From a virus, in the IMG/VR virus record IMGVR_UViG_3300028920_000272, positions 1 through 23,692 of that record: DNA of 23,692 nt; one strand, written 5' to 3'. Numbering within the stretch: the first letter of the stretch is position 1; each line of letters begins with the position of its first letter. The notes below the pieces were generated by a model that did no database searches, was not told the DNA's origin, and saw only the letters and a list, made by a program, of their open reading frames with translations. This document shows positions 191 to 19,173 of this stretch, in pieces. Position numbers and translations under genes: made by a program.

Positions 191-193
191 TCA

Positions 194-326: not shown

Positions 327-371
327 TTGTTGTGCAATCTGGTGAGATTGGTGCCGTTTTACTTCGCGGTT

Positions 372-1452: not shown

Positions 1453-1465
1453 GAATGATCGTTTG

Positions 1466-1488
1466 CTTAGTCCCAAGTTGGGACATAG
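1466..1488 (-). repeat. Dispersed palindrome, copy 2 (inverted orientation)
   Basis: Arms CTTAGTCCCAA and TTGGGACATAG flank a central G. The TA/AT asymmetry and the left flank TTTGC, which is GCAAA on the other strand, show that this copy is reversed relative to the other four. Its reverse complement differs from the copy at 19120 only at the central base. With copy 1 it brackets the minus-strand island. Confidence 0.9.
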
Positions 1489-1599
1489 TAAGATAAATGG
1501 TGGTAATATTAAACCTTCGGTGTTAAAATAAACATTGCATAGTTCTTTCGCCTATGTTACCATTTGCGAAATAATAAGAAACTATAATTAGAGAATAAA

Positions 1600-2112: not shown

Positions 2113-3656
2113 ACATAATAGCTCCTAATACTCCAGATGATATAGCTGAAGTATTAGGCTATTGTTCTATTTCTACTCGCATAACTGCTAAAACTCTTTT
2201 TCCTGATATTTTTTGGACAGAGTTTTCTACTCTTCACGATCAAATATTCGATCTAATAGACTCCGACGAACAGAAGATTGCTATAGCCGCTCCTCGTGGT
2301 ATTGGTAAGACTACTATAGCTACTGCTTTAGCAGCAAAAGAAATCCTATTTCGTCAAGAGCATTTCATTGCTTATGTTATGAACTCTGCTACAGTCGCTT
2401 GTATGCAGACTGAGAATTTAAAGCATATCTTACTAACAACTCCTACCATTCGTCATTTCTTTGGTAATATTAAAAAAGATATTGCTACTGATGAATCAAT
2501 TCCACTAGATTCTTCATCAGACGAAACATTTGCTAAATCCGTTTGGACTGCTTTTGGTACTACTTGTGTACTTCCTCGTGGAGCAGGTCAACAAATTCGT
2601 GGCCTTAATTGGCGCTCACATAGACCTGGATTGATATTAGTAGATGATCTCGAAAATAAAAAAGAAATAATGTCAGAAGAAAATAGAAAGAAAATTAAAT
2701 CTTGGTTTTTTTCTGACCTAGTAAAATCAGTTGATCGGTATTCTAATAAATGGAAAATAGTCTACATCGACACACTAAAGCATGAAGATTCATTACTTCA
2801 AGAATTACTAGATTCACCAGATTGGGCATCTGTAACTTTATCAATTTGTACTGAGGATCTTGAAACTAATGCTCCTGAGTATATGACTACTGAGGAAGTT
2901 AAAAAAGAATACAAAGAACATGAGCGAAAAGGTTTACTTGATGAGTTTTATTCTGAATTTATGAATACGCCAGTTTCATTAGCAGATCAATCAGTAACTA
3001 AAGAACACTTTCGATACTACAAAGAATCAGAAAAAGAATTCCAAGAGGAAATTAGGAATAGAATAGAAAATATACTCATTGTTGACCCTGCTAAAACTGC
3101 TAAATTACAATCAGCTGATAGTGCTCTTATCTGCATTGGTCTTGATTTACTTGCTGGCAGGTACTTTGTACGAGAAGTGATTTCTGAAAAATTCTATCCA
3201 GATGAACTTTATGATGAAATATTTCGACTAACAACACTTTTTCAGATTAGTGTAGTAGGAATAGAAGTAACATCTCTACATGAGTTCATTGTCCAACCAA
3301 TAAAGAATGAAATGTACACTCGTTCTACTTTTTTTGAGCTTATAGAATTAAAGGCAGTAGGCGATAAAGTAGAAAGATTTAAACATACTATCCCATACTA
3401 TCGTCGTGGTTATATCTATCATGAAGAATCTCTTAAAGAAGGTAAATTAGAATCTCAAATTCTTAGTTTTCCTAAACCAAAACTATGGGATTGTATTGAT
3501 TGTATGAGTTACTTGCCAAAAATGCTAGAACTTGGTCAGAGATATTTCTCTTACTCTGGTTCTGACTTAGATGATGAAGATGAAATAGCAGAACAAGAAT
3601 ATCAAATTCTTGAAGAATCTTATGAGCCAGCTTTAACAGATTGGAGATGTGCATAA
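2109..3656 (+). CDS. terL: Terminase large subunit (ATPase and nuclease)
   Basis: A 515-residue DNA-packaging motor that docks on the portal, uses ATP to translocate DNA into the capsid and cuts it. The Walker A loop is at residues 61-69 (APRGIGKTT), Walker B at 175-182 (LILVDDLE), and a probable coupling motif follows near 217-226 (IVYIDTLKHE). The C-terminal RNase H-like nuclease begins near residue 320, with acidic residues D326 (LIVDPAK) and E386 (VVGIEVTSLHE). Length and domain order are standard for the family. It is coupled to terS at its start, and its stop shares one base with the next gene (TAATG). The portal gene lies about 8.6 kb downstream instead of next to it, which is an uncommon arrangement. 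Confidence 0.96.
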   Translation: MNIIAPNTPDDIAEVLGYCSISTRITAKTLFPDIFWTEFSTLHDQIFDLIDSDEQKIAIAAPRGIGKTTIATALAAKEILFRQEHFIAYVMNSATVACMQTENLKHILLTTPTIRHFFGNIKKDIATDESIPLDSSSDETFAKSVWTAFGTTCVLPRGAGQQIRGLNWRSHRPGLILVDDLENKKEIMSEENRKKIKSWFFSDLVKSVDRYSNKWKIVYIDTLKHEDSLLQELLDSPDWASVTLSICTEDLETNAPEYMTTEEVKKEYKEHERKGLLDEFYSEFMNTPVSLADQSVTKEHFRYYKESEKEFQEEIRNRIENILIVDPAKTAKLQSADSALICIGLDLLAGRYFVREVISEKFYPDELYDEIFRLTTLFQISVVGIEVTSLHEFIVQPIKNEMYTRSTFFELIELKAVGDKVERFKHTIPYYRRGYIYHEESLKEGKLESQILSFPKPKLWDCIDCMSYLPKMLELGQRYFSYSGSDLDDEDEIAEQEYQILEESYEPALTDWRCA

Positions 3657-5611
3657 TGACTATTAAAATAGATATTAACCAACCTACCGATGATGTTCTT
3701 GTGTCAGATTTGCCTGTTTATATTAGGGCTAATAAAGTTATTCTTCAAGAATTGTTATCTACTAATACTACTTCAACTAACACTCAAACTATAACTTTAG
3801 ATAATCCTGATATATTAGTAGATGGTACTGTTTCTATAGTATTTCTACGATCACCTTATGATGTTTCTATCAATACGGTAAATTTTGATAATTCAAGTTT
3901 AGTAATTTTATTTGCTTTGAATGATGGAATTACTATCTTAGATAATATTGGAAACATTAAACTTCAAGGTGATACTAACAATCCTGAATTTCCTATGGAA
4001 CAAGGTGATGTGTTAGTACTTCTTTGTCAAGATGGTGAAAATGCTACTGAAATTTATAGAGAGTTAAATCAAGATGCTCCATTAGGGGACGATGGTAGGA
4101 TAAGGACTATTCAAAAGCTATTAGTATCTGGCCATAATGTAGCAGATCATATAGAAGATGTTACTATTCATTTTACTATAGATGATAGTGATACTACCTC
4201 TCTTGATATTGTTTGGTCTGCTAGTAAATTAGAAAATAAATTTAATAATATTTATGGAAGTCAGATAGTTCCTGATTCTATTCCTCCAGTAGCACTAGAT
4301 TCCATTGATATTCCTAATGCAGATAAAGATGGATTTGTTGTAGTGTATAATCATTCTGCTAATCAATTCGAATGGGAAGATGTATCGGGTGTAGTTGGTA
4401 CTGACACTTATCGAGTAAAGTGGAATGAAAGTGATACTAATCAATTTTTAGACGAGAAACTTCCTATTATTGACTTTCCTAGTGCAGAGCATGATGGACA
4501 TTACTACACTGTAGATGCTGATGGAGTAGGTTATTGGTCTCCTGGATTACCTAAATTAGAAAATATCGGCCCTAGTGAGTTAATCAGAACTAACGATGAT
4601 AGTTCTGGATTTATTCCTGGAGCAGTATTGGATGATATTTCTTCTCATACTAATCAACTTCTTCAAGTAGCTGACAGTCCTGCTGGTAAAGATCAAGGTA
4701 GAATTATTCCTGGTGCTATTTTTCCTACTTTGAGTGAAATTAGTAATAAAGTAAGAGGAGATTCATTAGTAATAAACGAGGATAAGACAGGGTTTACTAT
4801 TAGATCAATAGCTTACGACACTGATCCTGTCTATATTTGGATTGATCCTACTAATGGTAATGATAGTGATAGTGGAACTGAATCTAATCGGCCAGTTAAA
4901 ACTTTTGCTAAAGCTAGAGATATTGGTGTAGCTCTTGCTGGTTATGCTGGTAGAGAACTTTATTTTTATATCGTAGATGGAATTCATACTAATAGTGATT
5001 CTTTTAGTGATGTATCTTTTGGGCCATCGAAAGTTACTATTAAAGGTGTTAGTCTTAATAGTACAAGATTGACAGTTTCAAATGGATTTAGATTCCTACC
5101 ATTTACTGATGTTCGTATGGAAGATTTTACAGTAACTGGTAATGGTGGTGATAATACTAATGGTTTATTTCTTAATAGTACGAGAGCTTATGTGAATGGA
5201 GTAGGATTTAATAATTTTTATACTGGTATACGAGTTGCTTATGGTTCACAGATGCGTACAGGCTCTAAAAATGTGTTTCTTGATAATAATACTTATGGAA
5301 TACGTTGTTATAATAATAGCAACGCAAATTTATTTGGAACACTTTTTACTAGTATAACTGCTAAAGATCCAGGAGAAGGGCGAGGTATTGTTTGTGATTA
5401 TAATTCTTCTGTTTTTGCTCACTATGTCTATATCTCTCGATTCTTTTATGGTGTTACAGTAGGTCGTCATTCATGGGTTGATGTTTCTTATGGTAAGATT
5501 TCTAATTGTTCTAATATTAGCTCTGTCCCTCTTTCTTTATCATCAGAAACTTCACCTACTAAACGAGCATTTAATAGTTATATCATGGCCCATGATACTG
5601 AGATTGAATAA
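3656..5611 (+). CDS. Tailspike or tail fibre with parallel beta-helix
   Basis: A 651-residue virion protein expected to bind the host surface. ATG 3656 was chosen because GGAG at 3643-3646 sits nine bases upstream and the ATG overlaps the terL stop; an upstream ATG at 3647 would be too close. The N-terminal half is rich in beta-strand, Asn, Thr and Asp, and carries fibre-like segments such as GHYYTVDADGVGYWSPG. From about residue 392 it has the entry motif of right-handed beta-helix proteins (WIDPTNGNDSDSGT, then P.KTFAKA) and short rungs with N/G turns to about residue 645. This fold is common in tailspikes that bind or cleave polysaccharide, but no catalytic residues can be assigned by eye. 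Its place directly after terL is unusual for a receptor-binding protein. Confidence 0.8.
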   Translation: MTIKIDINQPTDDVLVSDLPVYIRANKVILQELLSTNTTSTNTQTITLDNPDILVDGTVSIVFLRSPYDVSINTVNFDNSSLVILFALNDGITILDNIGNIKLQGDTNNPEFPMEQGDVLVLLCQDGENATEIYRELNQDAPLGDDGRIRTIQKLLVSGHNVADHIEDVTIHFTIDDSDTTSLDIVWSASKLENKFNNIYGSQIVPDSIPPVALDSIDIPNADKDGFVVVYNHSANQFEWEDVSGVVGTDTYRVKWNESDTNQFLDEKLPIIDFPSAEHDGHYYTVDADGVGYWSPGLPKLENIGPSELIRTNDDSSGFIPGAVLDDISSHTNQLLQVADSPAGKDQGRIIPGAIFPTLSEISNKVRGDSLVINEDKTGFTIRSIAYDTDPVYIWIDPTNGNDSDSGTESNRPVKTFAKARDIGVALAGYAGRELYFYIVDGIHTNSDSFSDVSFGPSKVTIKGVSLNSTRLTVSNGFRFLPFTDVRMEDFTVTGNGGDNTNGLFLNSTRAYVNGVGFNNFYTGIRVAYGSQMRTGSKNVFLDNNTYGIRCYNNSNANLFGTLFTSITAKDPGEGRGIVCDYNSSVFAHYVYISRFFYGVTVGRHSWVDVSYGKISNCSNISSVPLSLSSETSPTKRAFNSYIMAHDTEIE

Positions 5612-5623
5612 GTTAATAAGTTA

Positions 5624-5646
5624 CTATGTCCCAATTTGGAACATAG
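5624..5646 (+). repeat. Dispersed palindrome, copy 3
   Basis: Arms CTATGTCCCAA and TTGGAACATAG with a central T, one mismatch, followed by GCAAATTAA. It lies in the short gap between the tailspike and the lysis-like block, ending 14 bases before the next ATG. That gene has no Shine-Dalgarno sequence, so a hairpin here would sit exactly in its translation-initiation region. Confidence 0.92.
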
Positions 5647-5660
5647 CAAATTAAAATATT

Positions 5661-6077
5661 ATGACTCTTGCAGAATTAGCTTCAATACTATCTGCTAGTG
5701 CAGCTGTACTAGGTGTAATATCAGTAGCCATAAAATCTCAAAAAGATTATGGTAAAACTCAAAGAGAATTTGGGCGTAGGCAAGGAGCAGAGGAAGAGCG
5801 AGAGAAGTATGTTAATAAAGAATTTTTAGAAATTAGAAAAGATCTGAATAAAGGATTAGCTTCTATTAGAGATTATCATGATGCAATACATTTAGATCAT
5901 GATAATAATATAAAATGGCTGGATAAAAATAGTCAAGTAAGCCAGTGTGAAAAAGCTCAAGCACATATTATTGAATTACTCAGGCAAGAGATAGCTCCTA
6001 TTAGAGAATTACTTTCTAATTATAAAGAAATTCCTGAAAGAGTAGCTAAATTGGAGGCAAAAGTAAATGGGAAATAA
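5661..6077 (+). CDS. Single-TM coiled-coil protein, possible inner-membrane spanin or holin-associated protein
   Basis: A 138-residue protein with one hydrophobic segment at about residues 6-24 (ASILSASAAVLGVISVAI), then a long charged, helical, coiled-coil-prone region to the end. In tailed phages this layout fits an inner-membrane spanin, which spans the periplasm and pairs with an outer-membrane lipoprotein to fuse membranes in the last step of lysis. It also fits XhlA-like or antiholin proteins. The next gene is a lipoprotein that starts inside this gene in another frame, which is how many spanin pairs are arranged. There is no ribosome site before ATG 5661; the palindrome copy at 5624 lies there instead. 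The spanin reading is inference from layout. Confidence 0.55.
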   Translation: MTLAELASILSASAAVLGVISVAIKSQKDYGKTQREFGRRQGAEEEREKYVNKEFLEIRKDLNKGLASIRDYHDAIHLDHDNNIKWLDKNSQVSQCEKAQAHIIELLRQEIAPIRELLSNYKEIPERVAKLEAKVNGK

Positions 6078-6654
6078 AGTTAGTATTCTTATTGTACTTT
6101 GCATGTTCTTGTCTGGTTGTGCTCAGCCACCGCCGCCACAAGACCCTGCTATATTAGCTACTCAGCAAAAAATTATCGCTGAGTGTCGCATTTATTATCA
6201 ACAGCTTGAAGTAGCTGAGCTTAACCAGCTATCTACCTTATCAGATAAAGATCGTGCTATGGTATTAATGGTACGTACTATGGCTAATGCTATGACTGGT
6301 AATATTGATCCGTGTGCTATAGGTCAAGATGGTTATTGGCAAGCGTATGAAGCATACTATGCCGCTCATGCTAGAGAATTTGAGGCGGCTACTGGATTAG
6401 GTGGTACAATAGCTATTGGTGGTTTTACTTATGCCGGACTTAAATCAATTTTGAGCGGAGTAGGTGATACCAGTATAACTAATAATGGAGATGGTAACTC
6501 AGTAAGTGAGATTCGTTCTGACTATTCAGCGCGGCAATACTACCCTGGCGGAGATAACTCGGTTGTCCGTGGTAGCGGTGAAAGCGGTGGCTATAACCCT
6601 TCATTGGGGTGTAGTTATGAAACGTGGTTCAGCAATGGAGGCTTTTGTCCGTAA
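6067..6654 (+). CDS. Outer-membrane lipoprotein, possible outer spanin partner
   Basis: A 195-residue protein beginning with a lipoprotein signal: a short basic start, hydrophobic ILIVLCMF and lipobox LSGC with Cys at position 18, then PPPP, a proline-rich element seen in many outer spanins. No Asp follows the Cys, so outer-membrane sorting is expected. Its start lies inside the previous gene, with GGAGG at 6053-6057. It is far longer than ordinary Rz1 proteins. After a helical region there is a glycine-rich hydrophobic stretch near residues 118-137, then an N/G/S-rich tail ending in two Cys (GCSYETWFSNGGFCP). The lipoprotein call is firm; the spanin role is inferred from overlap and context. 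The DNA becomes richer in GC in the second half. Confidence 0.7.
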   Translation: MGNKVSILIVLCMFLSGCAQPPPPQDPAILATQQKIIAECRIYYQQLEVAELNQLSTLSDKDRAMVLMVRTMANAMTGNIDPCAIGQDGYWQAYEAYYAAHAREFEAATGLGGTIAIGGFTYAGLKSILSGVGDTSITNNGDGNSVSEIRSDYSARQYYPGGDNSVVRGSGESGGYNPSLGCSYETWFSNGGFCP

Positions 6655-6803
6655 TGAGAAAGCGTGATATAGATGATCTGCATCGTAGCGAGGTTCCTTG
6701 CGATCCGACTCGATTAAATGGGAAACCGAAATGGGCGTTTATGTTACCATCCATTTCTTTTGGAGCAGTTAAAAAATTCTTTTCAAGGAGGAAACGAAGA
6801 TGA
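6654..6803 (+). CDS. Small basic protein coupled at both ends
   Basis: A 49-residue frame fills the gap between two longer genes exactly. Its ATG shares a base with the upstream stop (TAATG) and its TGA overlaps the next start (ATGA), strong signs of a translated gene. GGAG lies about 13 bases upstream, so translation may depend on coupling. The product begins MRKRDIDDLH, has a short hydrophobic part (WAFMLPSISFGAV) and ends with a very basic tail (KKFFSRRKRR). The family is not recognised. Its place among lysis-like genes hints at a membrane-active accessory peptide, but that is only context. Confidence 0.6.
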   Translation: MRKRDIDDLHRSEVPCDPTRLNGKPKWAFMLPSISFGAVKKFFSRRKRR

Positions 6804-7027
6804 ACATTTTCAAAAAGCAGATGTTTTATTTCATGATCTCGCAGCTTATGAAGCTTGCTAAAGAGACTATCGGTGACCAGGAGCGGGTGAAAGAATTTGT
6901 AGGCGTTATACTCAACGCTGCCGATGGTTTATTCCCCGAGGGATCAATGGGAGACAAAGTGGTAGAAGACATTACTACTGAAATCTACGAAACCTATGGC
7001 ATCACTGACCCCGACCCGAATAACTAA
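6800..7027 (+). CDS. Hypothetical small helical protein
   Basis: A 75-residue protein of unrecognised family. It has one of the best ribosome sites in the window, AGGAGG about nine bases before ATG 6800, so it is probably well translated. The first 25 residues are basic and amphipathic (MNIFKKQMFYFMISQLMKLAKE), the rest acidic and helical with a short D/P-rich end. No long membrane segment is visible. The stop overlaps the next start by one base. It belongs to the GC-richer part of the lysis-like block, so it probably came in together with its neighbours. Confidence 0.75.
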   Translation: MNIFKKQMFYFMISQLMKLAKETIGDQERVKEFVGVILNAADGLFPEGSMGDKVVEDITTEIYETYGITDPDPNN

Positions 7028-7317
7028 TGAAACTCTTTTCGTCCATGTTTTCCGGTCACTGTACTTGGTGGCCGGATGTATACTTCGGGGTTGATTTGTC
7101 ACTAGCCTGCTACGATCATGACGCGGCGTATCTTACTCGAAGCGTTAAGCTCAAAATCGTATCGGATTTTAGGTTCGCAAAGGAATGGTGGAATGCGCCA
7201 AAGTCGCACCATAGATGGTGGCAGAAACTAGGGGTGAAAACTACTACGCCATTTGCTTTTATCGCGGTGGCTACGCTTGGCTGGGGAGTATGGATATATG
7301 GGCGATTTAACGACTAA
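7027..7317 (+). CDS. PLA2-like small protein with C-terminal membrane segment
   Basis: A 96-residue protein. Residues 28-35 read CYDHDAAY, matching the CxxHDxxY signature of phospholipase A2-like folds, in which His and Asp form the catalytic dyad. A preceding CTWWPDVYFG segment and a later K..SDFRF (D47) also fit the small phage or bacterial PLA2-like type. Residues about 75-92 are a hydrophobic segment (FAFIAVATLGWGVWIYG) likely to anchor it in a membrane. Placed directly before the endolysin gene, it could help disrupt membranes during lysis or act as a holin-like protein. The fold call is by motif only; enzymatic activity is not proven. It overlaps the start of the endolysin gene by 20 bases. 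Confidence 0.5.
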   Translation: MKLFSSMFSGHCTWWPDVYFGVDLSLACYDHDAAYLTRSVKLKIVSDFRFAKEWWNAPKSHHRWWQKLGVKTTTPFAFIAVATLGWGVWIYGRFND

Positions 7318-7669
7318 TTTTTCCCGCTGGGAATTTGCATGTAAGTGTGGTTGTGGTTTTGATACTATTGATTATGCTCAATTAGTAGAACTACAAACTA
7401 TTCGTACACTTTCTAACGGGAAAATTATCATTACTTCTGGCTGTCGGTGTGTTAATTATAATGAGTGGATAGATGGTGCGCCTAAATCTCAGCATTTAAT
7501 TGGCAGAGCTACTGATATAATCAGTGAAGTATTATCACCTAAGCAATTATTTGATCTTCTTAACACTCTCAAAGATGGCAAAGGTGGATTAATACTTTAT
7601 GATGATTTTGTTCATACGGATAGTAGAACTATTCCTTATAGAGATATTAGAACTAGGGATAAGCTATGA
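7298..7669 (+). CDS. M15-family peptidase endolysin (D-Ala-D-Ala or L-Ala-D-Glu type)
   Basis: A 123-residue zinc peptidase that cuts peptide cross-links or stems in peptidoglycan, the expected endolysin. The start was placed at ATG 7298, nine bases after GGGGAG; a longer TTG-started frame has no such support. It begins with the characteristic FSRWEFACKCGCGF, followed by SGCRC. The zinc and active-site motif SQHLIGRATD gives H66 and D73, and FVHTDSR gives the third zinc ligand H106. The length matches the short single-domain M15 endolysins. There is no signal peptide, so release needs a holin or membrane damage; the neighbouring membrane proteins are candidates. It is coupled by ATGA overlap to the next gene. 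Its 3' part returns to the AT-rich composition of the backbone. Confidence 0.88.
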   Translation: MGDLTTNFSRWEFACKCGCGFDTIDYAQLVELQTIRTLSNGKIIITSGCRCVNYNEWIDGAPKSQHLIGRATDIISEVLSPKQLFDLLNTLKDGKGGLILYDDFVHTDSRTIPYRDIRTRDKL

Positions 7670-7833
7670 GTGAAGAAAAAGATAAGGAAATTCAGGATTA
7701 TTATGAGTGTCCTAGGTGTAATAAATTACTAACTAAAGAAGAGCATTTTTGTTCTATTTGTGGTTGTTGCTTGGGATGTGAAGTCGAATATGATCGTAGA
7801 TTTGTTGCGAAAATAAGTAATGATAATAAATAA
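7666..7833 (+). CDS. Small zinc-ribbon protein
   Basis: A 55-residue frame whose ATG overlaps the endolysin stop (ATGA). It carries CPRC at residues 15-18 and a second cluster CSICGCC at 29-35 with another Cys at 38, a spacing that suits a small zinc ribbon or rubredoxin-like knuckle. It is rich in acidic and basic residues and has no membrane segment. Many phages carry such tiny zinc proteins as nucleic-acid or protein binders; a specific job cannot be given. It may be expressed only through coupling, since the upstream ribosome site (AGGG) is weak. Confidence 0.7.
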   Translation: MSEEKDKEIQDYYECPRCNKLLTKEEHFCSICGCCLGCEVEYDRRFVAKISNDNK

Positions 7834-7847
7834 GTAGAGGTAATATT

Positions 7848-8270
7848 ATGTCTGGTACTAATTCTACTGGATTACAGGTAGTAAAATATGGAACTACTGA
7901 TGAATTTGGTATAGAGTCTGAGTTTCCTCTTGACCCTATATTTAATCAAATTACTGTAGATTATTCAGGCGGTTCTTTGTATAGTAATATAGTTCATGCT
8001 GAATTACGTGCTAGTTTGCCTAAAATTTATACTAATATTCAACTTCAAGTTATTTCACAAGAAGCTGGACGTGTGTATGAAGCATCATTAGATGGAGTTG
8101 ATTATGATCTTTTATCTACTGGCATATCATTTCCTGATATGGATGCTACTGGTGGTGAGTTAAGACAAGATGTATATTTTAGAATATCTGTAGATAATGA
8201 TGGAACTGTTACTCCAGGTATTTATGATACGCCTAAAATTAGGCTTACGTTCAATGCTACTGATTTATAG
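7848..8270 (+). CDS. Beta-rich virion-type protein, paralogue 1
   Basis: A 140-residue protein with a good ribosome site (GAGGT). It is beta-rich, with few charged helices, and is clearly related to the next gene: both begin with V-K-x-GTTDEF, have D-P-I followed by V-D/L-x-x-SGG, S-LDGV(D/N), and end with VDNDGTV...Y...P followed by L. This points to a gene duplication. Context among tail fibre genes suggests a tail or capsid decoration protein or a fibre cap with an Ig-like or jelly-roll fold. The family is not recognised. Confidence 0.8.
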   Translation: MSGTNSTGLQVVKYGTTDEFGIESEFPLDPIFNQITVDYSGGSLYSNIVHAELRASLPKIYTNIQLQVISQEAGRVYEASLDGVDYDLLSTGISFPDMDATGGELRQDVYFRISVDNDGTVTPGIYDTPKIRLTFNATDL

Positions 8271-8281
8271 GAGATACTGAA

Positions 8282-8674
8282 ATGGCACTGAAATTAGTTA
8301 AAGTTGGAACTACTGATGAATTTTCTTTTGGCGATGAGAGTGACCCTATTATTAACTCTGTTACATTAGATGGTTCTGGTGGTACTAAGGTTAGTAATGA
8401 GTTACAAATAGATTTATACGCTGATAGTGGATTCTATATTGATCCAATATCACTTGAAGTAGTTTCGCCTGATGCTGGAATAGTTTATCAATGTAGTTTA
8501 GACGGAGTTAATTTTTATGATATTAATCCTTTTATTCTCCCTATTGTAGATGCAGTTAGTACTCCGCAAAGAATACCTTTATATCTGCGTGTTGTAGTAG
8601 ATAATGATGGCACTGTTTCTGCTGGAAGTTATACTAATCCAGATCTTAAACTTATAGCTACACAAATAGAATAA
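8282..8674 (+). CDS. Beta-rich virion-type protein, paralogue 2
   Basis: A 130-residue homologue of the preceding product, sharing the GTTDEF start, the SGG strand and the VDNDGTVSAGSY end. It lacks about ten residues at the N-terminus relative to its neighbour and has diverged elsewhere, so the duplication is not recent. GGAG sits shortly before the ATG. The pair probably contributes two related subunits, or one replaced copy, to the tail or head surface. Function is inferred from position only. Confidence 0.8.
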   Translation: MALKLVKVGTTDEFSFGDESDPIINSVTLDGSGGTKVSNELQIDLYADSGFYIDPISLEVVSPDAGIVYQCSLDGVNFYDINPFILPIVDAVSTPQRIPLYLRVVVDNDGTVSAGSYTNPDLKLIATQIE

Positions 8675-8691
8675 CTACTAGGAGGTTTATT

Positions 8692-8822: not shown

Positions 8823-11087
8823 ATGAACGGCTGGTCTCATAGAGCGGCGCTGACTATTTCAGCGGCCTATATAGACGAAGATTTAACCAACTGGACATTG
8901 GTTTTCGACCAAAGTTTTAATGCGGTTCTTACTCAGATAAATGGCCCGCTTGATTTAGACGGTACTCGTCCAGCCAAATCTGATGGTGGCGATATTCGAT
9001 TTGCTACCGATGCCGCTGGACTTACTGAGATAGCGGTCGATCTTAGAGAGTGGACGCCCAATAATGACGCGGCTTTAGCAACGTGTGAGATTGCCGTAAA
9101 AATCCCCTTTGTTGATGCATCCGCCAACACCACCATTTATCTGTTTTGGGGAAATTCGACGGCTGAAAAACCGTTGCCTGATTCGCTTTATGGGCAGTAC
9201 AACGCTTACGATTCCGACTATGAATTAGTCTACCCGCTGAGTGAAAACAGCGGATCACGCCTTGACCGGACAAGCAATCAGGAAACGCTGACGCCAAACA
9301 GTACGCCAACGGCTGTAGATGGCGTTGTCGGCAATGCAAACTCATTTGATGGTCTCAACGACTACTTGTATTCCGGCACGTCGAATCCGATAGAGGGCGG
9401 CAATACTTTTACTGTTGAGTGCTGGTCGAAAGCGCCGCGCAGTCAACCGAACGGGTACACTGACGCTTCTATAGTGACATTGGCAACAGCAGGCGTAACG
9501 TCTGACGCTTTAGGATTTTGGTGCGATGCAGCGTCACCCGCAAGCGGGCGTAGTAATTTGATAGCGTGGCTTGTTGCCGGTGAGCGCATTGAATCTGACA
9601 CCGGTCAATGGACAGACGATACGTGGGAACACTTCGCCGGAACCAGTAGTTCGACGACACTAAAGCTGTTGATTAACGGTGTAGAAGTAACAGACAGCCC
9701 GAAATCAGTAGCCATTGGCAATATTCGTTCTAACACCCGTTTTTTGGTCGCCGCTTGGGATTTTGACCTTGATCGGTATGAGCGAAACGGTGAAATAGAT
9801 GAACTTCGCATTTCCAGCACGGTTCGTTCGAACGCATGGATTGCGGCGAACTATCACAACCAACGTAATGCATCTGGCTTTTTGAACTTTGGCCCAATAG
9901 AGGATATTGGTGGTATAGCATATTCTTTTGATTATACTACAGAACTAATTGTTGAACGAGCTGTAACTATTCTGTATGATTTAAAATTAGACGTAGATGA
10001 TGGTTCTGGTATACCTATTTCTGTTTCTTATGATTTAAAATTAGACGTATCTACAGTATTTTTTACTTCTTATGATGTTAGCTTAAATGTAGCTATAATA
10101 TCTTTTACTTCTTATGATATTTTATTAAATGTATTTAATTCAATAGAGACTGATTATGATTTAAAATTAGACGTATCTACAGTATTTTTTACTTCTTATG
10201 ATTTAAAACTAGACGTATCTGATAATTCTGGTGTACCTATTTCTGTTTCTTATGATTTAAGTTTAAACATACTTTTTAATGTAGAAACTAATTATGATTT
10301 AAGATTAAATGTCTTATCTAATCTTGGTTATTCTTTTGACTATAATACAGTATTAGACGTAGTACGAAATATTGATACTTCATATGATATTAAGTTAATT
10401 ATAGACTATGGAATATCTACTTCTTATGATTTAAGATTAAATGTTCTCTCTATTTATGGACATTCTTTTGACTATAATACAGTATTAGACGTAATACGAA
10501 ATATTAATACTTCATATGATGTTTCTCTTACTGTAATTGATATTCTTAATGAATTAATTACTATTTGTGATATTGAATATTCTACTTCTAGTTTTAATGT
10601 AATCGATGTTAGATTATTAGATAGTGAAAGTTTTATTGAGTTTTTTAATTCTATAATATATATTTCTTATACGCCGATATTAGTTAATACTTGTGAATTA
10701 TTATTTTCAATTTCAGATATAGGCGTATATTTTGGTGTAAATAATTCTGAAAATTTATTTAGTACCTGTGATATATCATTTGATTTGCCTATAATTAATA
10801 GTATTCTTAATATATCACTATCACTTAATTCTATTATAGAATTTAATCTATCTGAAGTAGCTTTAGTAAGGCAGTTACTTATTTTAACTGATGATGTTAT
10901 TACTTTTAACACTACTAATATCCTACCATCAATATTACATGAGTTAGGTACAAACAGTGTTATAGTAATTAACACTAATTCTATCACAATTTATATTGAA
11001 AGATTTAATATTAGTAATATTAAATCATATGAAAATGTAACTGTAATAAGAAGCTATGAACCATTAATCTGTAGAGAAGGAGAATAG
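8823..11087 (+). CDS. Chimeric receptor-binding protein: DUF2341 and LamG domains plus 14-residue repeats
   Basis: A 754-residue protein in two very different parts. Residues 1 to about 120 resemble DUF2341 (WSHRAALTIS start, GGDIRFATDAAG, IYLFWGNSTA). Residues about 135-350 look like a LamG/concanavalin-type lectin domain (GNANSFDGLNDYL, FTVECWSKAP, DELRISSTVRS). Both are typical carbohydrate-binding modules. From about residue 371 to 580 there are about 13 beta-strand repeats of 14, 16 or 18 residues with core YDLKLDV, followed by an irregular N/I/S-rich beta region. The DNA changes sharply from GC-richer to AT-rich near 9905, at the domain border. It most likely acts as a tail fibre or adhesin. 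The upstream frame ends directly before its ATG; the nearest ribosome site (AGAGGT) is about 13 bases away. Confidence 0.75.
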   Translation: MNGWSHRAALTISAAYIDEDLTNWTLVFDQSFNAVLTQINGPLDLDGTRPAKSDGGDIRFATDAAGLTEIAVDLREWTPNNDAALATCEIAVKIPFVDASANTTIYLFWGNSTAEKPLPDSLYGQYNAYDSDYELVYPLSENSGSRLDRTSNQETLTPNSTPTAVDGVVGNANSFDGLNDYLYSGTSNPIEGGNTFTVECWSKAPRSQPNGYTDASIVTLATAGVTSDALGFWCDAASPASGRSNLIAWLVAGERIESDTGQWTDDTWEHFAGTSSSTTLKLLINGVEVTDSPKSVAIGNIRSNTRFLVAAWDFDLDRYERNGEIDELRISSTVRSNAWIAANYHNQRNASGFLNFGPIEDIGGIAYSFDYTTELIVERAVTILYDLKLDVDDGSGIPISVSYDLKLDVSTVFFTSYDVSLNVAIISFTSYDILLNVFNSIETDYDLKLDVSTVFFTSYDLKLDVSDNSGVPISVSYDLSLNILFNVETNYDLRLNVLSNLGYSFDYNTVLDVVRNIDTSYDIKLIIDYGISTSYDLRLNVLSIYGHSFDYNTVLDVIRNINTSYDVSLTVIDILNELITICDIEYSTSSFNVIDVRLLDSESFIEFFNSIIYISYTPILVNTCELLFSISDIGVYFGVNNSENLFSTCDISFDLPIINSILNISLSLNSIIEFNLSEVALVRQLLILTDDVITFNTTNILPSILHELGTNSVIVINTNSITIYIERFNISNIKSYENVTVIRSYEPLICREGE
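9933..10560 (+). repeat. In-frame 42-bp repeat array inside the chimeric fibre gene
   Basis: The array encodes tandem units of 14 residues (some 16 or 18) with core Y-D-L-K-L-D-V. Two 42-base units are identical in DNA (10029-10070 and 10155-10196). A higher-order duplication of 132 bases (44 residues, 14+16+14) is seen at 10293 and 10425, nearly identical over long stretches. All observed length changes are multiples of three, so unit gain or loss keeps the frame. Confidence 0.9.
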
Positions 11088-11089
11088 TG

Positions 11090-11884
11090 ATGGGAAGTTT
11101 AACTACTTATGCTGAAAATGCTTTGTTACAGCACGTGTTTAAAATTATAACTTATGTTCCAGCATCTACTTTGTTTGTAGGATTAGGAAGTTCTGTCAGT
11201 GTGGAACCTAATCCTACTTTGCTTGAATTTACTGGTGGTGAATATACTAGGCAATCAATATCTTTTTTGGCCGCTAGCGATAGGCAAATAACACAAGAAT
11301 CAGATATTCTTTATCCAGCGGTTACTTCTAATCTTGGCACTATTAGAAATTATGGAATTTTCGATGCCGCTATAGGTGGTAATATGCTAGCCTATGGTAG
11401 CTTAGAAGAAGAAAAAGTTTATGAAGCTGGTAAGGAAGCTTTCATAGGCAATGGAAGTATTGTGATTTCTGTTAATACTGGCGGAACTAGTACTTCTTAT
11501 GCTAATAAACTACTTAACTTTATGTTTCGTAATATTAATCTTACTCCGGCGACTAATATGTATGTTGGAATAACTACAGTAAATATATCTGATAATGATT
11601 TTGGTGATGATATTTCTGAGTTGGGTATGACTAACTATGTTAGACAATTATGCAATTCTTGGTCTGCTCCGTCTGGAACTCCTAGAAGTAGCTCTAATGG
11701 AATTGTTATAAATTTTGGTCAACTGTTAGGCAATGCTTCTATTATGAGAGCTGGATTTATTATAGACTCTGCATCTGGTAATGGTGAGATTATAGCATAT
11801 GCTAATTCTGCCGTAGTTACTACTATCGGTTCTGGAGATATAGTAAAATATCCTGTGGGTAATTTTATAGTAAGGATGAACTAA
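11090..11884 (+). CDS. Tail protein with duplicated domain
   Basis: A 264-residue protein. ATG 11090 is preferred over the overlapping GTG 11087 because GGAG lies about seven bases before it. The first 125 residues match a common phage tail domain: an N-terminal helix (ENALLQHVF), then a TLFVGL strand, GGEYTRQSISF, LGTIRNYGIFDAA and GGNMLAYGSLE. The second half repeats the plan: NKLLNFMF, NMYVGIT, TNYVRQLC, then IMRAGFIIDSASGNGEIIAYA. Two copies in one chain instead of one point to internal duplication. Such proteins usually lie near fibres and are thought to be virion or fibre-associated; the exact role is not known. It is coupled to its neighbours on both sides. Confidence 0.75.
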   Translation: MGSLTTYAENALLQHVFKIITYVPASTLFVGLGSSVSVEPNPTLLEFTGGEYTRQSISFLAASDRQITQESDILYPAVTSNLGTIRNYGIFDAAIGGNMLAYGSLEEEKVYEAGKEAFIGNGSIVISVNTGGTSTSYANKLLNFMFRNINLTPATNMYVGITTVNISDNDFGDDISELGMTNYVRQLCNSWSAPSGTPRSSSNGIVINFGQLLGNASIMRAGFIIDSASGNGEIIAYANSAVVTTIGSGDIVKYPVGNFIVRMN

Positions 11885-12204
11885 TGAAAGGTATAGTATT
11901 TAGTTCTCGTGAGAATGTTATAGATGTTAAGTTAGTAGAGAATGGAGTACCTATCGGTTCGAGTGATTATGATGCTATACTTAGAATGACTCTAGATTTT
12001 GGTCATGTTTTAATTGACTCAGAAGTAACTGGTCATGGATTTGATAAAGTTTTTGATTGGTCTAGTGGTGAGTTTTTACGCTTGTCTTTAGGTAAGATTA
12101 GTGACCAACTAAAGAAAGGAACTCATAGAGTTGAACATGTTATTTATACTCGACTTTCTAGTAATGGTATTGTTTGGGGTTATCCTATAATAATTGTTAT
12201 GTAA
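11884..12204 (+). CDS. Hypothetical tail-region protein
   Basis: A 106-residue, mostly beta-stranded protein (MKGIVFSSRENVIDVKLVENG, then ILRMTLDFGHVLID, then FLRLSLGKISDQL, then a hydrophobic end GYPIIIVM). Its ATG shares one base with the stop of the preceding gene, so the two are translated together. It closes the tail-accessory block; a palindrome copy follows five bases after its stop. It may be a small structural partner of the neighbouring tail protein. I do not recognise the family. Confidence 0.7.
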   Translation: MKGIVFSSRENVIDVKLVENGVPIGSSDYDAILRMTLDFGHVLIDSEVTGHGFDKVFDWSSGEFLRLSLGKISDQLKKGTHRVEHVIYTRLSSNGIVWGYPIIIVM

Positions 12205-12208
12205 GATA

Positions 12209-12231
12209 CTATGTCCCAACTTGGGACATAG
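12209..12231 (+). repeat. Dispersed palindrome, copy 4 (perfect)
   Basis: Arms CTATGTCCCAA and TTGGGACATAG are perfectly complementary around a central C, followed by GCAAGAATTT. It lies in the 52-base gap between the tail-accessory block and the portal gene. A hairpin with a 10-bp stem and three-base loop could form in RNA, but only a weak, interrupted T-rich stretch follows. Confidence 0.95.
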
Positions 12232-12256
12232 CAAGAATTTAATTTAGGAATTTATC

Positions 12257-14215
12257 ATGCCTAGAATTATAACAGGAGTAGGACAGAGGAATGTTCTTAG
12301 TGCGGCTAGTACTAGAGAATATAAATACGAGTATCCTAACAAGTTAGATCTCAAGCCTAATTCTAAAATTCATAATAAACTAGTTGATTGTATTATTAAC
12401 TTAATTAATTCTAGTATTGATAATCTTGATGTTAATAGGAAAAGATATAAAAATCAGGATAATGTACTAACTTCTTATATTTATCAGGATGATGAAGAAA
12501 AAAGAATTAAGAGTAAAGATTCAAGAAAGCCAACTAGTATAGTATTTCCTTATTCTTATGCTATACTAGATTCTTTATTAACTTACATGTCCATGGCTTT
12601 TTTACGTGACCCTATTTGTAGGTATGAGCATGTTTCGGGAAAAGATTATTTAGGTGCAGTGTTACTTGAAGCAGTTATATCTCAACAAACTAGACGATCA
12701 AGAACTGCACTTGCATTGCATACTATAATGAAAAATGCTTTTTCTTATGGTGTTGGATATGGTGTAGTAGGGTGGGAAACTATTACTGGCAAGAGATCAA
12801 CTGTTACTGAGCCTAGAGCTAGGTTAGCTAACTTAGCAGCTGATACTCCAGATAGACAAAGAAGTAGTGTTACTATTTATGAGGGAAATAAATTATATCC
12901 TCTTAATCCTTATTTAACTTTTTCAGACCCTAATGTATCTGCTACTGATGTACAGTCAGGAGAATTTTTTGGGTGGTTGGAAAATACTAATTTCTTAGCA
13001 CTTAAAAATGAAGAGTTGAATAATGATAGTATGTTTAATGTAGAGTATGCTAAGCATCTTACTAACACTGTTTCTCAATTCATGGTAGATGAAGCAGTGC
13101 AAGCTAATGATGGTAGGAATGATGTTATTAATACTACTAGCAGTCTAACTAGACCTATTGATGTTCTTAAAGTTATTGTTAAATTTATTCCTAGCGAATG
13201 GGAAGTATTTAATTCTGATGAAGTAGAAACTTGGTTATTTAGGATTGCTGGAGATAGTTTATTAATTGGGGCAGAAAAGCTAGATCTAGACCATGGTAAA
13301 ATTCCTGTAGTTGCTACTGCTCCTGAGTATGATGGCAGAAGTGCTTCTCCTGTGTCTAAGTTAGAAACTCTTTATGGCTTACAGTCAGTCGGAGATTGGT
13401 TGTATAATTCACATATTACTAATGTTCGTAAAAGTTTAAACAACATGCTTATTGTTGACCCTAGTATGGTTAACATGAATGATCTTCGTGACCCTGCTCC
13501 AGGTAAGATGATTAGAACTAGAAAGCCAGCTTGGGGTAGAGGAGTAGATGGAGCAATTAAGCAATTAAAAATTGATGATATTACTCGACAAAATATTGGT
13601 GATGCAGGATTTATTCAAAGTGCTATGGAACTAGCTGCTGGTACTGATGGTTCTATGATGGGTAGTTTAAGAAATAGTGGGCCAGAAAGATTGACAAAAG
13701 GAGAATTTCAAGGTACTAGAACATCTGCTATTAGTCGTTTGGAAAGAATTGCTTTGATTATTAGCTTACAACTAATGCATGATTTGAGTGATATGTTTGC
13801 TACTAACACGCAACAGTTTATGTCTAATAATACTTATATCAAGATAACGGAGGGACTTGAGCAAGATTTAATTAAGCAAGGATTTGAAGTAGAGAATAAA
13901 AGATTAAAAGTTAAATTTCAAGATTTATTAATTCCTTATGATGTTAAGTTAAAGGATGGTAGTATTCCTGGCGGTAATTTTTCAGATGGTTGGATGGATT
14001 TGTATAAGTTAGTTGTCGAAAATGAAGCACTGTCTAGTCGGTTAGATATATTTAAATTGTTTAAGTTTATAGCTTATAACTTCGGCGCTAAGAACGTAGA
14101 TGAATTTGAACTAAAGCCACAAGTAATGCCAGACCAGCAAGTAGAAAATATGGCTCAGAGAGGAGACATAGTTCCTTTTAATCCAACAATTCCAGGAGCA
14201 GAAAATGCGATCTAG
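12257..14215 (+). CDS. Portal protein
   Basis: A 652-residue protein that forms the ring at the unique capsid vertex through which DNA enters and leaves. The sequence has the layout of podovirus-type portals: an N-terminal part with YSYAILDSLLTYMSMAFL, a helical segment with FSYGVGYGVVGWE near residue 160, a stretch NPYLTFSDPNVSATDVQSGEFFG, a wing-like part, the stem and tunnel region with WLYNSHITNVRKSLNNMLIVDPS, and a long helix following GPERLTKGEFQGTRTSAISRLERIA. Length and order with scaffold and capsid genes downstream agree. The ATG at 12257 has an AGGA site. Its end overlaps the next start by 11 bases. Confidence 0.9.
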   Translation: MPRIITGVGQRNVLSAASTREYKYEYPNKLDLKPNSKIHNKLVDCIINLINSSIDNLDVNRKRYKNQDNVLTSYIYQDDEEKRIKSKDSRKPTSIVFPYSYAILDSLLTYMSMAFLRDPICRYEHVSGKDYLGAVLLEAVISQQTRRSRTALALHTIMKNAFSYGVGYGVVGWETITGKRSTVTEPRARLANLAADTPDRQRSSVTIYEGNKLYPLNPYLTFSDPNVSATDVQSGEFFGWLENTNFLALKNEELNNDSMFNVEYAKHLTNTVSQFMVDEAVQANDGRNDVINTTSSLTRPIDVLKVIVKFIPSEWEVFNSDEVETWLFRIAGDSLLIGAEKLDLDHGKIPVVATAPEYDGRSASPVSKLETLYGLQSVGDWLYNSHITNVRKSLNNMLIVDPSMVNMNDLRDPAPGKMIRTRKPAWGRGVDGAIKQLKIDDITRQNIGDAGFIQSAMELAAGTDGSMMGSLRNSGPERLTKGEFQGTRTSAISRLERIALIISLQLMHDLSDMFATNTQQFMSNNTYIKITEGLEQDLIKQGFEVENKRLKVKFQDLLIPYDVKLKDGSIPGGNFSDGWMDLYKLVVENEALSSRLDIFKLFKFIAYNFGAKNVDEFELKPQVMPDQQVENMAQRGDIVPFNPTIPGAENAI

Positions 14216-14444
14216 CATAGAAGATTTAGAGATTTTTGAAACTGGCAAAATTTGGAAAGATATGCAAGATGAATTTGATGAATGGGAGTTACAACAACTA
14301 GGTGAAATAAGACAAGCTAAGGGCGATTTAGACCTTGGTAATGTACAAGGAGTATTAGCAACTATATCTAATCTTAGAGATTTGATGTATATGCTAAAAG
14401 ATAAATGTCAATCAGAAAAGGAGAATGAAAATGGGAACGAGTAA
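14205..14444 (+). CDS. Small helical protein between portal and scaffold
   Basis: A 79-residue, strongly charged and helical protein (DMQDEFDEWELQQLGEIRQA, later ISNLRDLMYMLKDKC) ending in a Glu/Asn-rich tail. It starts inside the portal gene and overlaps the scaffold gene, so all three are translated as a unit. Short proteins in this place are frequent in podovirus head operons and may assist portal or scaffold assembly, but the family is not recognised. Confidence 0.75.
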   Translation: MRSSIEDLEIFETGKIWKDMQDEFDEWELQQLGEIRQAKGDLDLGNVQGVLATISNLRDLMYMLKDKCQSEKENENGNE

Positions 14445-15174
14445 TGAGCAAGTAAGTGACTTTGATTTTGGTGAAATTCTTGTATCAGCTGCTAGTGGCG
14501 GTGAAGAAGAAGTAGTTGAAAAAGAAGAGCAAGAAGTAGGTGGTGAAGTTAATGATGAAGTAAAGAAAGAAGAGCCATCAGAAGTAGAGCTTCTTAAAGA
14601 TCAACTTAAAGAGAAAGATAGTGTTATTGCTAATCTTTCTAAGAGAGAAATAGGTAAAGAAGAAGAAAAAAAAGAATCTCAGGAGCCCGAAGTTCAAGTA
14701 ACTTGGACGGATGCTAATTACATTGATGAAGATTTTGATTTTAACACTCTTACTCCTGAGAAGTTTAATTCTATCCTTAATCAAGTAGCTAAATCAGCTG
14801 CTGAAAATGGAGCAAGAACTGCTGTTGCTAAGTCTCTCTTAGCACTTCCAGAAGCTGTAAAGCATACAGTGAAAGTGCATTCTGATATTACTACGGCAGT
14901 TAATAAGTTCTATAAAGATAACTCTGATTTGAAGGAGTTTAGTAAGGTAGTTGCAACTGTAGCTCAAGAAATTGCTAGCGAAAATCCTGAGTTAACACTA
15001 GATGAATTGTTTGCCAAAGCTGGTGATGTTACTAGAGGTAGGCTTAATATAGCTAAAAAAACAAAAGCAGCACAAAACAAAGCACCTGCCGTAAATGTTG
15101 GTGGTCAACAGATTAGAAAAGGTGCTCAGGTATCTGGCTTAGAGAAAGAGATCGGCGAACTTCTTGATAGCTAG
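14431..15174 (+). CDS. Capsid scaffolding protein
   Basis: A 247-residue, highly acidic and helical protein located directly before the major capsid gene, the usual place for a scaffold that guides procapsid assembly and is then expelled. ATG 14431 is chosen because GGAG (14420-14423) is seven bases away; ATG 14425 would be only one base from it. The N-terminal third is Glu/Lys-rich and low complexity (EEEVVEKEEQEVGGEVNDEV). The middle has FDFNTLTPEKFNSILNQVAKS, and the C-terminal part is basic (IAKKTKAAQNK), as expected for capsid binding. No protease domain is visible. Confidence 0.82.
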   Translation: MGTSNEQVSDFDFGEILVSAASGGEEEVVEKEEQEVGGEVNDEVKKEEPSEVELLKDQLKEKDSVIANLSKREIGKEEEKKESQEPEVQVTWTDANYIDEDFDFNTLTPEKFNSILNQVAKSAAENGARTAVAKSLLALPEAVKHTVKVHSDITTAVNKFYKDNSDLKEFSKVVATVAQEIASENPELTLDELFAKAGDVTRGRLNIAKKTKAAQNKAPAVNVGGQQIRKGAQVSGLEKEIGELLDS

Positions 15175-15216
15175 TAATTATATTTCAACCTTTAATTATT
15201 TAATAGGAGAATTAAA

Positions 15217-16512
15217 ATGAGTTATTTTGTAGGTATGCGTGGTACTGGAGATTGGGTAACTGATGAACGTCCTAAATCATGGCGTGAGGGAATTCTTCGA
15301 CTCTATCCTCAAGGTAAGGCATTGATTACTGCTATCATGTCTAAAATGTCATCAGAAGTAGTAACTGATCCTGAGTTTTATTGGTGGACTCAGACAGTAG
15401 AAGCAGTATCGGGAGCTATTACTAATATTTACACTAATGCAGCTATGACTACTGCTTATACTACTGGCGGTTCTCAAGGTGATTTGCTTTATTGTAAAGT
15501 AGCTCTTGCCGAAGCTAACAAAGTACGTCCTGGTCATCAAATAGTTTTACGATATACTGATGATTCTCGTGTTGATGTGACTGGTAAGGTTACTAACGTA
15601 GTTCGTAATGGTGCTAACAGTCGGCTTGATGTTAAGCTACTTGAGGATGATGATAATTCACCTGACTACGATCTTTCTGACGCTAATCACTTTATTGTGA
15701 TTGGTAGTATCAATCCTGAGGGTGGTCAGATTCCTGAGGCAATTACTAGGAATCCTGCTAAGATTTATAATCTTACTCAGATTTTTAGAACTCCTCTTGA
15801 GATCACTCGTACTGCTCGTAGAACTAAGCTTCGTACTAAAGAGGCTTATAATGAAGCTAAGAAAGAGGCATTGGAAATGCACTCTATCGAAATGGAAATG
15901 AATACTTTGTTCGGTCAGCGATTGGATACTATTGGTGACAATGGTAAACCTGAGCGAACTACTATGGGTATTATTCCTTTTGTTCGTGCTAATGCACCTG
16001 CTAATGTGGATGACTTTAAGTTTTCTACTAACATAAATGCTGGCGATACTTGGCTTGAGGGTGGTAAGATTTGGTTGGATACTATGTTTGAGCAACTTGC
16101 TCGATATGCTAATATGAGCGATATGGTGTGGTGCTGTGGTTCTACTGCATTGCTTGCTATCAATCGTCTTGCAGCAGCTAATTCAGAAATCCAGCTTGTT
16201 CCTACTTCTCCTGCTTACGGGCTTCAAGTAGTTAAGTGGATTACTCCTTTTGGTGATGCTAATCTTATGACTCATCCTCTGCTTAGCCAAGGAGTTACTA
16301 CTCGTAAAATGATGGTTGGTATTACTCCTAAATCTATGAAATTTAAATACATAGATGATACGTTCTTTAAGAACGATCCTGAGAAAGAAGCTGGCGAAGG
16401 TAGTTATGATGCTACTAAAGAGGAGTTTCTTACTGAGGGTGGTTATGAGTATCAGCATCCTGAGCATTTTATGATTCTTGATGGTCTTGGTGATACTAAT
16501 CTTGTAACTTAA
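15217..16512 (+). CDS. Major capsid protein
   Basis: A 431-residue protein between scaffold and connector genes, with a strong AGGAG ribosome site. The region FRTPLEITRTARRTKLRTKE followed by EALEMHSIEMEMNTLFGQR and ERTTMGIIPFVRA resembles the SU10/DUF5309 type of HK97-fold capsid protein, where a long spine helix precedes G-rich segments. Length is normal for the fold without a large decoration insert. No N-terminal prohead protease site is evident, and a separate scaffold is encoded, so assembly probably goes without delta-domain cleavage (inference). A short hairpin follows the stop. Confidence 0.88.
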   Translation: MSYFVGMRGTGDWVTDERPKSWREGILRLYPQGKALITAIMSKMSSEVVTDPEFYWWTQTVEAVSGAITNIYTNAAMTTAYTTGGSQGDLLYCKVALAEANKVRPGHQIVLRYTDDSRVDVTGKVTNVVRNGANSRLDVKLLEDDDNSPDYDLSDANHFIVIGSINPEGGQIPEAITRNPAKIYNLTQIFRTPLEITRTARRTKLRTKEAYNEAKKEALEMHSIEMEMNTLFGQRLDTIGDNGKPERTTMGIIPFVRANAPANVDDFKFSTNINAGDTWLEGGKIWLDTMFEQLARYANMSDMVWCCGSTALLAINRLAAANSEIQLVPTSPAYGLQVVKWITPFGDANLMTHPLLSQGVTTRKMMVGITPKSMKFKYIDDTFFKNDPEKEAGEGSYDATKEEFLTEGGYEYQHPEHFMILDGLGDTNLVT

Positions 16513-16525
16513 TAGTTACTTTAAT

Positions 16526-16554
16526 ATGAGGAGGGGCTAATAACTCCTCCTCAT
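16526..16554 (+). promoter_or_regulatory. Hairpin with SD-like and anti-SD arms after the capsid gene
   Basis: A perfect 9-bp stem, ATGAGGAGG pairing with CCTCCTCAT, encloses an 11-base loop, in the 50-base gap between the capsid and connector genes. No T-tract follows, so it is not a textbook terminator. The left arm contains AGGAGG and the right arm CCTCCT. The connector ATG at 16563 has only GGAG two bases before it. The hairpin could lower connector translation, stabilise capsid mRNA or be a leaky terminator. Confidence 0.6.
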
Positions 16555-16562
16555 TTGGAGCT

Positions 16563-17321
16563 ATGAACTTTAAGCAAATTAGAGAGAGATTTTTAGAATC
16601 ATCCGGTAGAACTGATTTAGTTGATACTGATACTCTAGCCGATTTTGGTGCAGGGTATTATATTAATGCTGGTCAGCGATGGTTGGATGTTAAGTTTATA
16701 GATGCTAATATGGAGGGTAGATTTTTTGCCCAACTGCCAGAAAAAACTTATACATTTAATATACCATTTTGTAGGGCTATTAATAGCGTATGGTATAGTG
16801 ATGCTTCTAATAATACCTATGGGCCACTTAGTAAAAAGACACTAGCAGAACTTAAACAAGAATTTCCTCTGCCTTGGCGATCACAAGAGCCAGGAACACC
16901 ATTGTATTATGCGCCTACTAATAATATGTTAGTTCCTAATGCACAAAATTTTAGACTAAAAGACCCTAGAGGTTATCCAGAAGCTACTACTAAAATGAAT
17001 GTTAAGTATGCTAATGTTCTTACTGGTGGAAATTTGGGAATTAATAGTATTACTATCTTACCAATTTGTTCTAATATAATTGACGTAGAAGTATGGGGAT
17101 TGTTTCATTCTAATGTTCTTACTGAAGATGAAGATACTAGCTGGTGGTCAGTTAATTATCCTGAAGCTCTTATTAGAGCAGGACTAAGAGAAGTAGAAAT
17201 AGATCATCGTAATACACAAGGAGTAGAAGATTGGACTAGAGCTATTGCTAGTTTAATAACTGACCTAGTAGACGATCAAGCATATGAACTATCTGTTGGA
17301 ATTAATCAAATGCGAGGATAG
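16563..17321 (+). CDS. Head-tail connector (adaptor) protein
   Basis: A 252-residue protein just after the capsid gene, the standard place for the adaptor that extends the portal to the tail. The N-terminal helices MNFKQIRERFLESSGRTDLV and YYINAGQRWLDVKF are typical of podovirus head-tail adaptor proteins, which begin with a short helical domain and continue with beta strands. The C-terminus is helical (NYPEALIRAGLREVEIDHRN, then DWTRAIASLITDLVDDQ). The ribosome site is unusually close to the ATG, but the N-terminus looks natural, so the start is kept. The following gene begins two bases after the stop. Confidence 0.72.
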   Translation: MNFKQIRERFLESSGRTDLVDTDTLADFGAGYYINAGQRWLDVKFIDANMEGRFFAQLPEKTYTFNIPFCRAINSVWYSDASNNTYGPLSKKTLAELKQEFPLPWRSQEPGTPLYYAPTNNMLVPNAQNFRLKDPRGYPEATTKMNVKYANVLTGGNLGINSITILPICSNIIDVEVWGLFHSNVLTEDEDTSWWSVNYPEALIRAGLREVEIDHRNTQGVEDWTRAIASLITDLVDDQAYELSVGINQMRG

Positions 17322-17323
17322 TA

Positions 17324-19154: not shown

Positions 19155-19173
19155 TCGCTAAAGGAGAATTACT

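Follow-up and report, generated by a model that had tools for sequence, protein, structure and literature searches.

In the 23,692-nucleotide stretch of viral DNA analysed here (IMG/VR record IMGVR_UViG_3300028920_000272, hereafter the window) and in the near-identical virus of which it is a close strain, Desulfofustis phage LS06-2018-MD01 (MD01), one lectin-like protein head is exchanged for another, as judged by alignment, right at the start of an array of short repeats. This exchange at the array edge, which the initial annotation of the array overlooked, is our main finding. The reading that we favour, with a probability of about 0.6, is that the protein is a virion adhesin, in which an exchangeable N-terminal lectin head would sit on a beta-rich stalk that is peculiar to the phage and attached by its C-terminal end. 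The features concerned are collected in Table 1.

Table 1. Position of the array gene, its parts, its internal duplications and the neighbouring genes in the window
Feature	Position	Strand	Remarks
Coding sequence with the array	8823-11087	+	one 754-aa product
N-terminal head	8823-9911	+	DUF2341 (residues 54-116) and Laminin_G_3 (residues 178-341), Pfam, above curated cut-offs
Replaced segment	8688-9912	+	without MD01 DNA match at the same place (blastn, sliding identity)
Right exchange border	9913-9926	+	at exactly 9913, identity to MD01 (15-nt steps) jumps from 0.33 to 1.00
Array	9927-10556	+	residues 369-578; 14 units of 14, 16 or 18 residues
222-nt-offset duplication, copy 1	9975-10049	+	75 nt at 87%
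222-nt-offset duplication, copy 2	10197-10271	+	75 nt at 87%
Longest exact repeat, copy 1	10028-10076	+	49 nt
Longest exact repeat, copy 2	10154-10202	+	49 nt
132-nt-offset duplication, copy 1	10287-10391	+	105 nt at 88%
132-nt-offset duplication, copy 2	10419-10523	+	105 nt at 88%
C-terminal part	10557-11087	+	residues 579-754; without significant period; presumed virion-side end (putative role)
Gp80-type fibre protein (PF23140)	11087-11884	+	E 8.7e-41
106-aa gene separating the fibre genes from the portal gene	11884-12204	+	no family assigned

The two viruses are about 97.3% identical when blastn matches are weighted by length (82.4% over window positions 13-976, 95.5% over 993-6736, 98.6% over 7022-8687 and 99.0% over 9913-23084, positions 23085-23692 aligning on a second piece of MD01), and it is against this background that the replaced segment stands out. 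On its left side, identity drops from 1.00 to 0.47 at 8687 (15-nt steps), after an AGGAGG common to both. The place is occupied in MD01 by a gene annotated as a DNA methyltransferase and in the window by a frame of 36 codons; the right border sits at the edge of the array. The window head matches Laminin_G_3, of the concanavalin-A-like lectin fold (PF13385), with 51.8 bits (curated cut-off 27.6) and DUF2341 (PF10102) with 26.4 bits (cut-off 23.4). The MD01 head scores 57.8 bits against PF13385, with no match reported to the PF10102 profile, and the two heads can be aligned end to end, at low identity. Beyond the border, the array regions are 98.2% identical as protein, and only five codons differ in the array (four of them non-synonymous) and ten in the C-terminal part (six non-synonymous). 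In this pair of close relatives the head is thus the variable part of an otherwise conserved protein, as in receptor-binding proteins with an exchangeable binding domain. Composition changes at the same point, from 49% GC (GC3 47%) in the window head to 24% (GC3 7.5%) in the array, and MD01 falls likewise from its own head to its array (48.7% to 22.8%). The best relatives of the window head in IMG/VR are 39-40% identical, none closer having been found there; in the phage collection, leaving aside the whole-protein match of MD01, the best is phage MD02, at 27.7% (a separate comparison of the window protein with MD02 gave 26.5%). On its upstream side, the exchanged segment is adjoined by two tandem paralogues (7848-8270 and 8282-8674; 140 and 130 aa, 43% identical, E 6e-28), for which we found neither a Pfam match above the curated cut-off nor a significant PHROGs match.

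The MD01 head also occurs on other stalks, in two genomes unrelated to MD01. When MD01 and MD02 were compared whole, in pieces, the sole blastn match was a block of 1030 nt at 81.9% identity, which starts 20 nt ahead of the MD01 ATG and ends with the LamG domain. An IMG/VR contig of 11,583 bases (L014), 8,611 of which were compared, has only 1050 nt in common with MD01, at 84.8%; with MD02 it shares a block of 1030 nt (90.3%) and two small pieces, of 122 and 58 nt. The LamG half of this block is mostly 85-100% identical in all three comparisons, whereas the DUF2341 half is 62-75% identical in the two that involve MD01 and 70-83% over its first 270 nt between MD02 and L014, suggesting a more recent move of the LamG part. 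Around the block everything differs: the background GC of the stretches compared is 35.5, 56.1 and 67.8% for MD01, MD02 and L014, and the stalks are unrelated, with units of 14, 16 and 18 residues in MD01 and the window, a period of 24 residues in MD02 and an Ala/Gly/Pro-rich period of 20 in L014. MD02 has siphovirus-like tail genes, and the tape measure protein of L014 is 38-40% identical, over about half its length, to those of myophages including the P2-like Smp131. One putative binding head is therefore found on otherwise unrelated phages; in plasmids, we found no match to the MD01 head. The two smaller pieces (MD02 125-279 against L014 7080-7282; 122 nt at 88.5% and 58 nt at 93.1%) lie where the MD02 record begins and match, in antisense, the repeat stalk of L014. 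They overlap a stretch, from position 170, that has unusually high read coverage according to the MD02 paper (PMC10370329), and are possibly what is left of a different stalk, or else a repeat that both have in common.

How general the arrangement is can be gauged from 18 loci whose product has a head related to that of the window or of MD01. One search supplied 15 of them, the others being L014, L009 and L013; another search returned seven head-relative loci, six on contigs of the 15-locus set and the seventh being L009. A significantly periodic tail follows the head in seven of the 18 (L013, L014, L015, L017, L018, L019 and L024; best lag reached by 0 of 300 shuffles), although the period of L017 is Ser-rich low complexity and that of L013 is weak. 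Seven others have a tail of more than 40 residues without significant period and the last four only 0-34 residues after the head. A repeat stalk behind the head is thus common but not obligatory. L017 lies on a virus contig of 231,647 bases (L006), in which some 800 residues of Ser-rich repeats come after the LamG head. In two phages with repeat tails (L004/L015 and L007/L019), a gene upstream of the head gene belongs to phrog_240, a PHROGs family that the Gp80-type protein of the window also matches.

The array itself is real, and slightly longer than the initial annotation had it (about 13 units). Our motif scan places 14 unit starts, at residues 369, 385, 403, 417, 431, 445, 459, 477, 491, 505, 521, 535, 549 and 565, and the 13 spacings between them (16, 18, 14, 14, 14, 14, 18, 14, 14, 16, 14, 14 and 16) are all even, none odd, and of the three lengths already described. 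The core Y-D-hydrophobic-x-L-x-V is present in most units, four times as the exact YDLKLDV. The annotated identity of two units over all 42 bases holds for those starting at residues 403 and 445, and because eight distinct 42-mers recur, the longest exact copy extends to 49 nt. The 132-base higher-order duplication was likewise recovered, and to it we add a second one, with an offset of 222 nt. The 42-nt period scores 194 in TRF, and residue identity at lag 14 is 0.29 versus a maximum of 0.183 in 1000 shuffles (lags 2-40 scanned), so that the periodicity is not due to chance. Elsewhere in the window, positions 1357-1402 hold a pure 12-nt tandem repeat, GTAATAGAAATA, in 3.8 copies at 100%.

Hydrophobic residues alternate along the array. 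Its even-minus-odd lag score is 0.579, a value reached by none of 1000 shuffles; six other stretches or proteins taken from the window score between -0.018 and 0.015. A single phase is kept across all 210 residues, with hydrophobic residues at 78 of 105 even positions and 22 of 105 odd ones between residues 369 and 578; it is not kept in residues 579-754. From this unbroken phase and the even spacings we infer an amphipathic beta-type sequence, and the array would then form a beta-rich stalk. The beta-strand stalk proposed initially is plausible and agrees with this at the level of sequence pattern. When run without relatives (single sequence, or three stretches of the window), AlphaFold2 gave mean pLDDT values of 33.8 and 36.7, too low to read a fold, be it the regular beta-solenoid suggested initially or a triple beta-spiral fibre shaft. 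Even unit lengths with an unbroken alternation could serve as a simple marker for beta stalks that are absent from family libraries. The notion that an even period is a general rule of LamG-linked stalks was dropped: the parity score of MD02 is 0.084 (reached by 2 of 1000 shuffles) and that of five IMG/VR tails (L014, L015, L018, L019 and L024) is at background. Nor do we claim L024 as a relative with 14-residue units, its best lag being 14 over the whole tail and 19 over the first 130 residues.

Membership of the array in a named repeat family, which the initial annotation did not recognise, is ruled out for the libraries searched: no match covers the repeat in Pfam, PHROGs, NCBIfam or PDB, and profile matches in the first three are weak (far below curated cut-offs, or with E values of 0.09 and above) or absent. 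Array relatives were not found in IMG/VR, by protein search or by one 20-base pattern, and the phage collection holds only that of MD01. A genome scan with whole-protein alignment, its patterns drawn from the head and not from the array, yielded only a head relative, in a contig of an archaeal MAG (L013). A relative of the portal (L011) brought no further array either, being a short contig in which a terminase gene, and not a fibre gene, lies upstream of the portal.

The array gene is followed by the Gp80-type fibre gene, the 106-aa gene and the portal gene. Relative to MD01, non-synonymous and synonymous changes number 26:14 in a block made of the array with the C-terminal part, the Gp80-type gene and the 106-aa gene, versus 4:10 in the portal, the gene at 14425-15174 and the major head protein (gene groups picked after the counts were seen; Fisher p 0.028). 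This excess agrees weakly with a surface role. It is also found elsewhere, as in the gene at 17324-18685 (453 aa, structural region, no PHROGs match), which has the most codon changes among the genes compared (14 non-synonymous, 8 synonymous). The window also carries five copies of a near-perfect palindrome, CTATGTCCCAANTTGGGACATAGCAA (191-219, 1463-1491, 5621-5649, 12206-12234 and 19117-19145). It has 10 strand-wise matches with at most 3 mismatches versus 0 expected (100 shuffles), at least two of the copies lie in gaps between consecutive genes, and similar copies occur in MD01 (OP947158.1, near 226, 7678 and 15464). The palindrome is possibly a phage operator or RNA-processing site.

In the virion adhesin that we favour, the DUF2341 and LamG domains would form an exposed, exchangeable binding head, and the 14-residue array a head-proximal stalk of amphipathic beta-strands with even unit lengths. 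The remaining C-terminal half would hold the molecule on the phage's own virion, near or on the Gp80-type fibre. Since different virion types have the N-terminal head in common, and the C-terminal half is peculiar to the phage, the molecule would be anchored by its C-terminus and have its tip at the N-terminus. The fold being lectin-like, the head probably binds a glycan, and its target would be a surface glycan or protein. Recombination at the array edge would swap the head, the edge tolerating in-frame joins; that the head was replaced there means that the old stalk could receive a new head without loss of the reading frame. In its way of working the protein would resemble other phage receptor-binding modules, except that its variable part is N-terminal.

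The abruptness of the right border, where GC jumps and identity is lost sharply, is also what one would see if an assembler had joined the head of one phage to the array of another, and the window does come from a contig. Such an artefact has a very slim chance, as the join is in frame and falls at the domain boundary. In addition, MD01, whose genome was deposited as complete and circular, has its own head laid out in the same way and followed by the same jump in GC. The array could alternatively be a length switch for the stalk, driven by slippage or recombination between its identical copies, as initially proposed. The exact 49-nt copies, the in-frame units and the duplications offset by 132 and 222 nt do show that duplications took place in the past, and MD01, with 15 units, is one unit longer than the window. 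However, the additional unit lies at the head-proximal edge of the array, at the recombination border where heads are exchanged, and the internal units are the same in both viruses, with no alignment gap over 9913-23084. In this one comparable pair, at 99% identity, no unit was gained or lost internally, and we regard a length switch as improbable.

A position on the head of the virion carries more weight, albeit still as an unlikely explanation. The protein would then decorate the capsid, its LamG head tethering the virion to an aggregate matrix instead of a host receptor. The MD01 record names the gene 'capsid protein' and PHROGs places the family of the Gp80-type neighbour under 'head protein', and it is on these two labels that the possibility stands; in addition, the MD02 gene sits between terminase and portal, and one head occurs in phages with unrelated genomes. 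Against it, the Pfam family of the neighbour is that of a fibre protein of podophage GP4, and among the Pfam and PHROGs profiles no capsid-binding domain was recognised in the array protein.

Both MD01 and MD02 were described from pink berry aggregates. That work reports that host CRISPR spacers target the 'capsid' gene, with one protospacer common to the two phages, that more variants occur in this targeted gene, and that a 2011 ancestor of MD01 (more than 97% ANI) has the rest of the gene conserved and its N-terminus absent (PMC10370329). The window may be that ancestor, which it fits in identity and in the gene affected; if so, the N-terminus would have been replaced by a distant homologue, not lost, a different reading of what was published on this CRISPR-targeted gene. 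As the head cassette is the only DNA that blastn finds in common between MD01 and MD02, the CRISPR target should lie inside the exchanged part. We can go further, though only as a speculation that we think has the odds against it, and suppose that podovirus-, siphovirus- and P2-like phages share a pool of N-terminal lectin heads, joined at the stalk edge to phage-specific repeat stalks. The head might then bind a shared aggregate matrix and not one host receptor, and a swap would change adhesion and, since host spacers target the head in MD01 and MD02, erase the CRISPR target at once. With one stalk bearing two heads and one head borne by three stalks, what was a curious repeat becomes an example of how natural phages evolve by modules, and one that can be put to the test.

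Among known proteins, the MD01 'capsid protein' (WBK39766.1 in OP947158.1; PMC10370329) resembles that of the window in its nearly identical array and C-terminal half, its internal units and its gene order, and differs in its DUF2341 and LamG head, in the methyltransferase gene upstream and in the extra unit. The 'virion structural protein' of MD02 (WBC28274.1 in OP947159.1) has head DNA 82% identical to that of MD01 and a short-period repeat tail after LamG. It is set apart from the window by its 24-residue period, unrelated stalk sequence and siphovirus-like tail genes, with no DNA similarity by blastn. The gene adjoining the array gene is of the family of the podophage GP4 fiber I protein gp80 (PF23140), to which the array protein itself has no match. 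Tail fibres usually have the anchor at the N-terminus and the binding domain at the C-terminus. Here, it is the N-terminal part that is variable and shared, and the C-terminal part, with the putative anchor, that is specific to the phage. This suggests that a fibre can also have the opposite polarity and bear its variable tip at the N-terminal end. Judging from titles and the openings of abstracts, we found no paper describing a DUF2341 and LamG head on a repeat stalk, and the portions of PMC10966104 consulted make no mention of LamG or laminin. That recognition parts pass between phage families is already known, since, according to PMC10579305, the Alteromonas phages A5, V22 and P24, a podovirus, a myovirus and a siphovirus without other similarity, have a host-recognition element in common. 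Theirs is a syntenic block of ten genes shared at the protein level, the tail-fibre match between A5 and V22 being mostly C-terminal (PMC10579305), whereas MD01, MD02 and L014 share a single sub-gene, N-terminal cassette at 82-90% DNA identity, joined to unrelated stalks. Module exchange is therefore known in kind, and what makes the present one a good test case is its sub-gene precision, its N-terminal position, its three unrelated carriers and its link to CRISPR.
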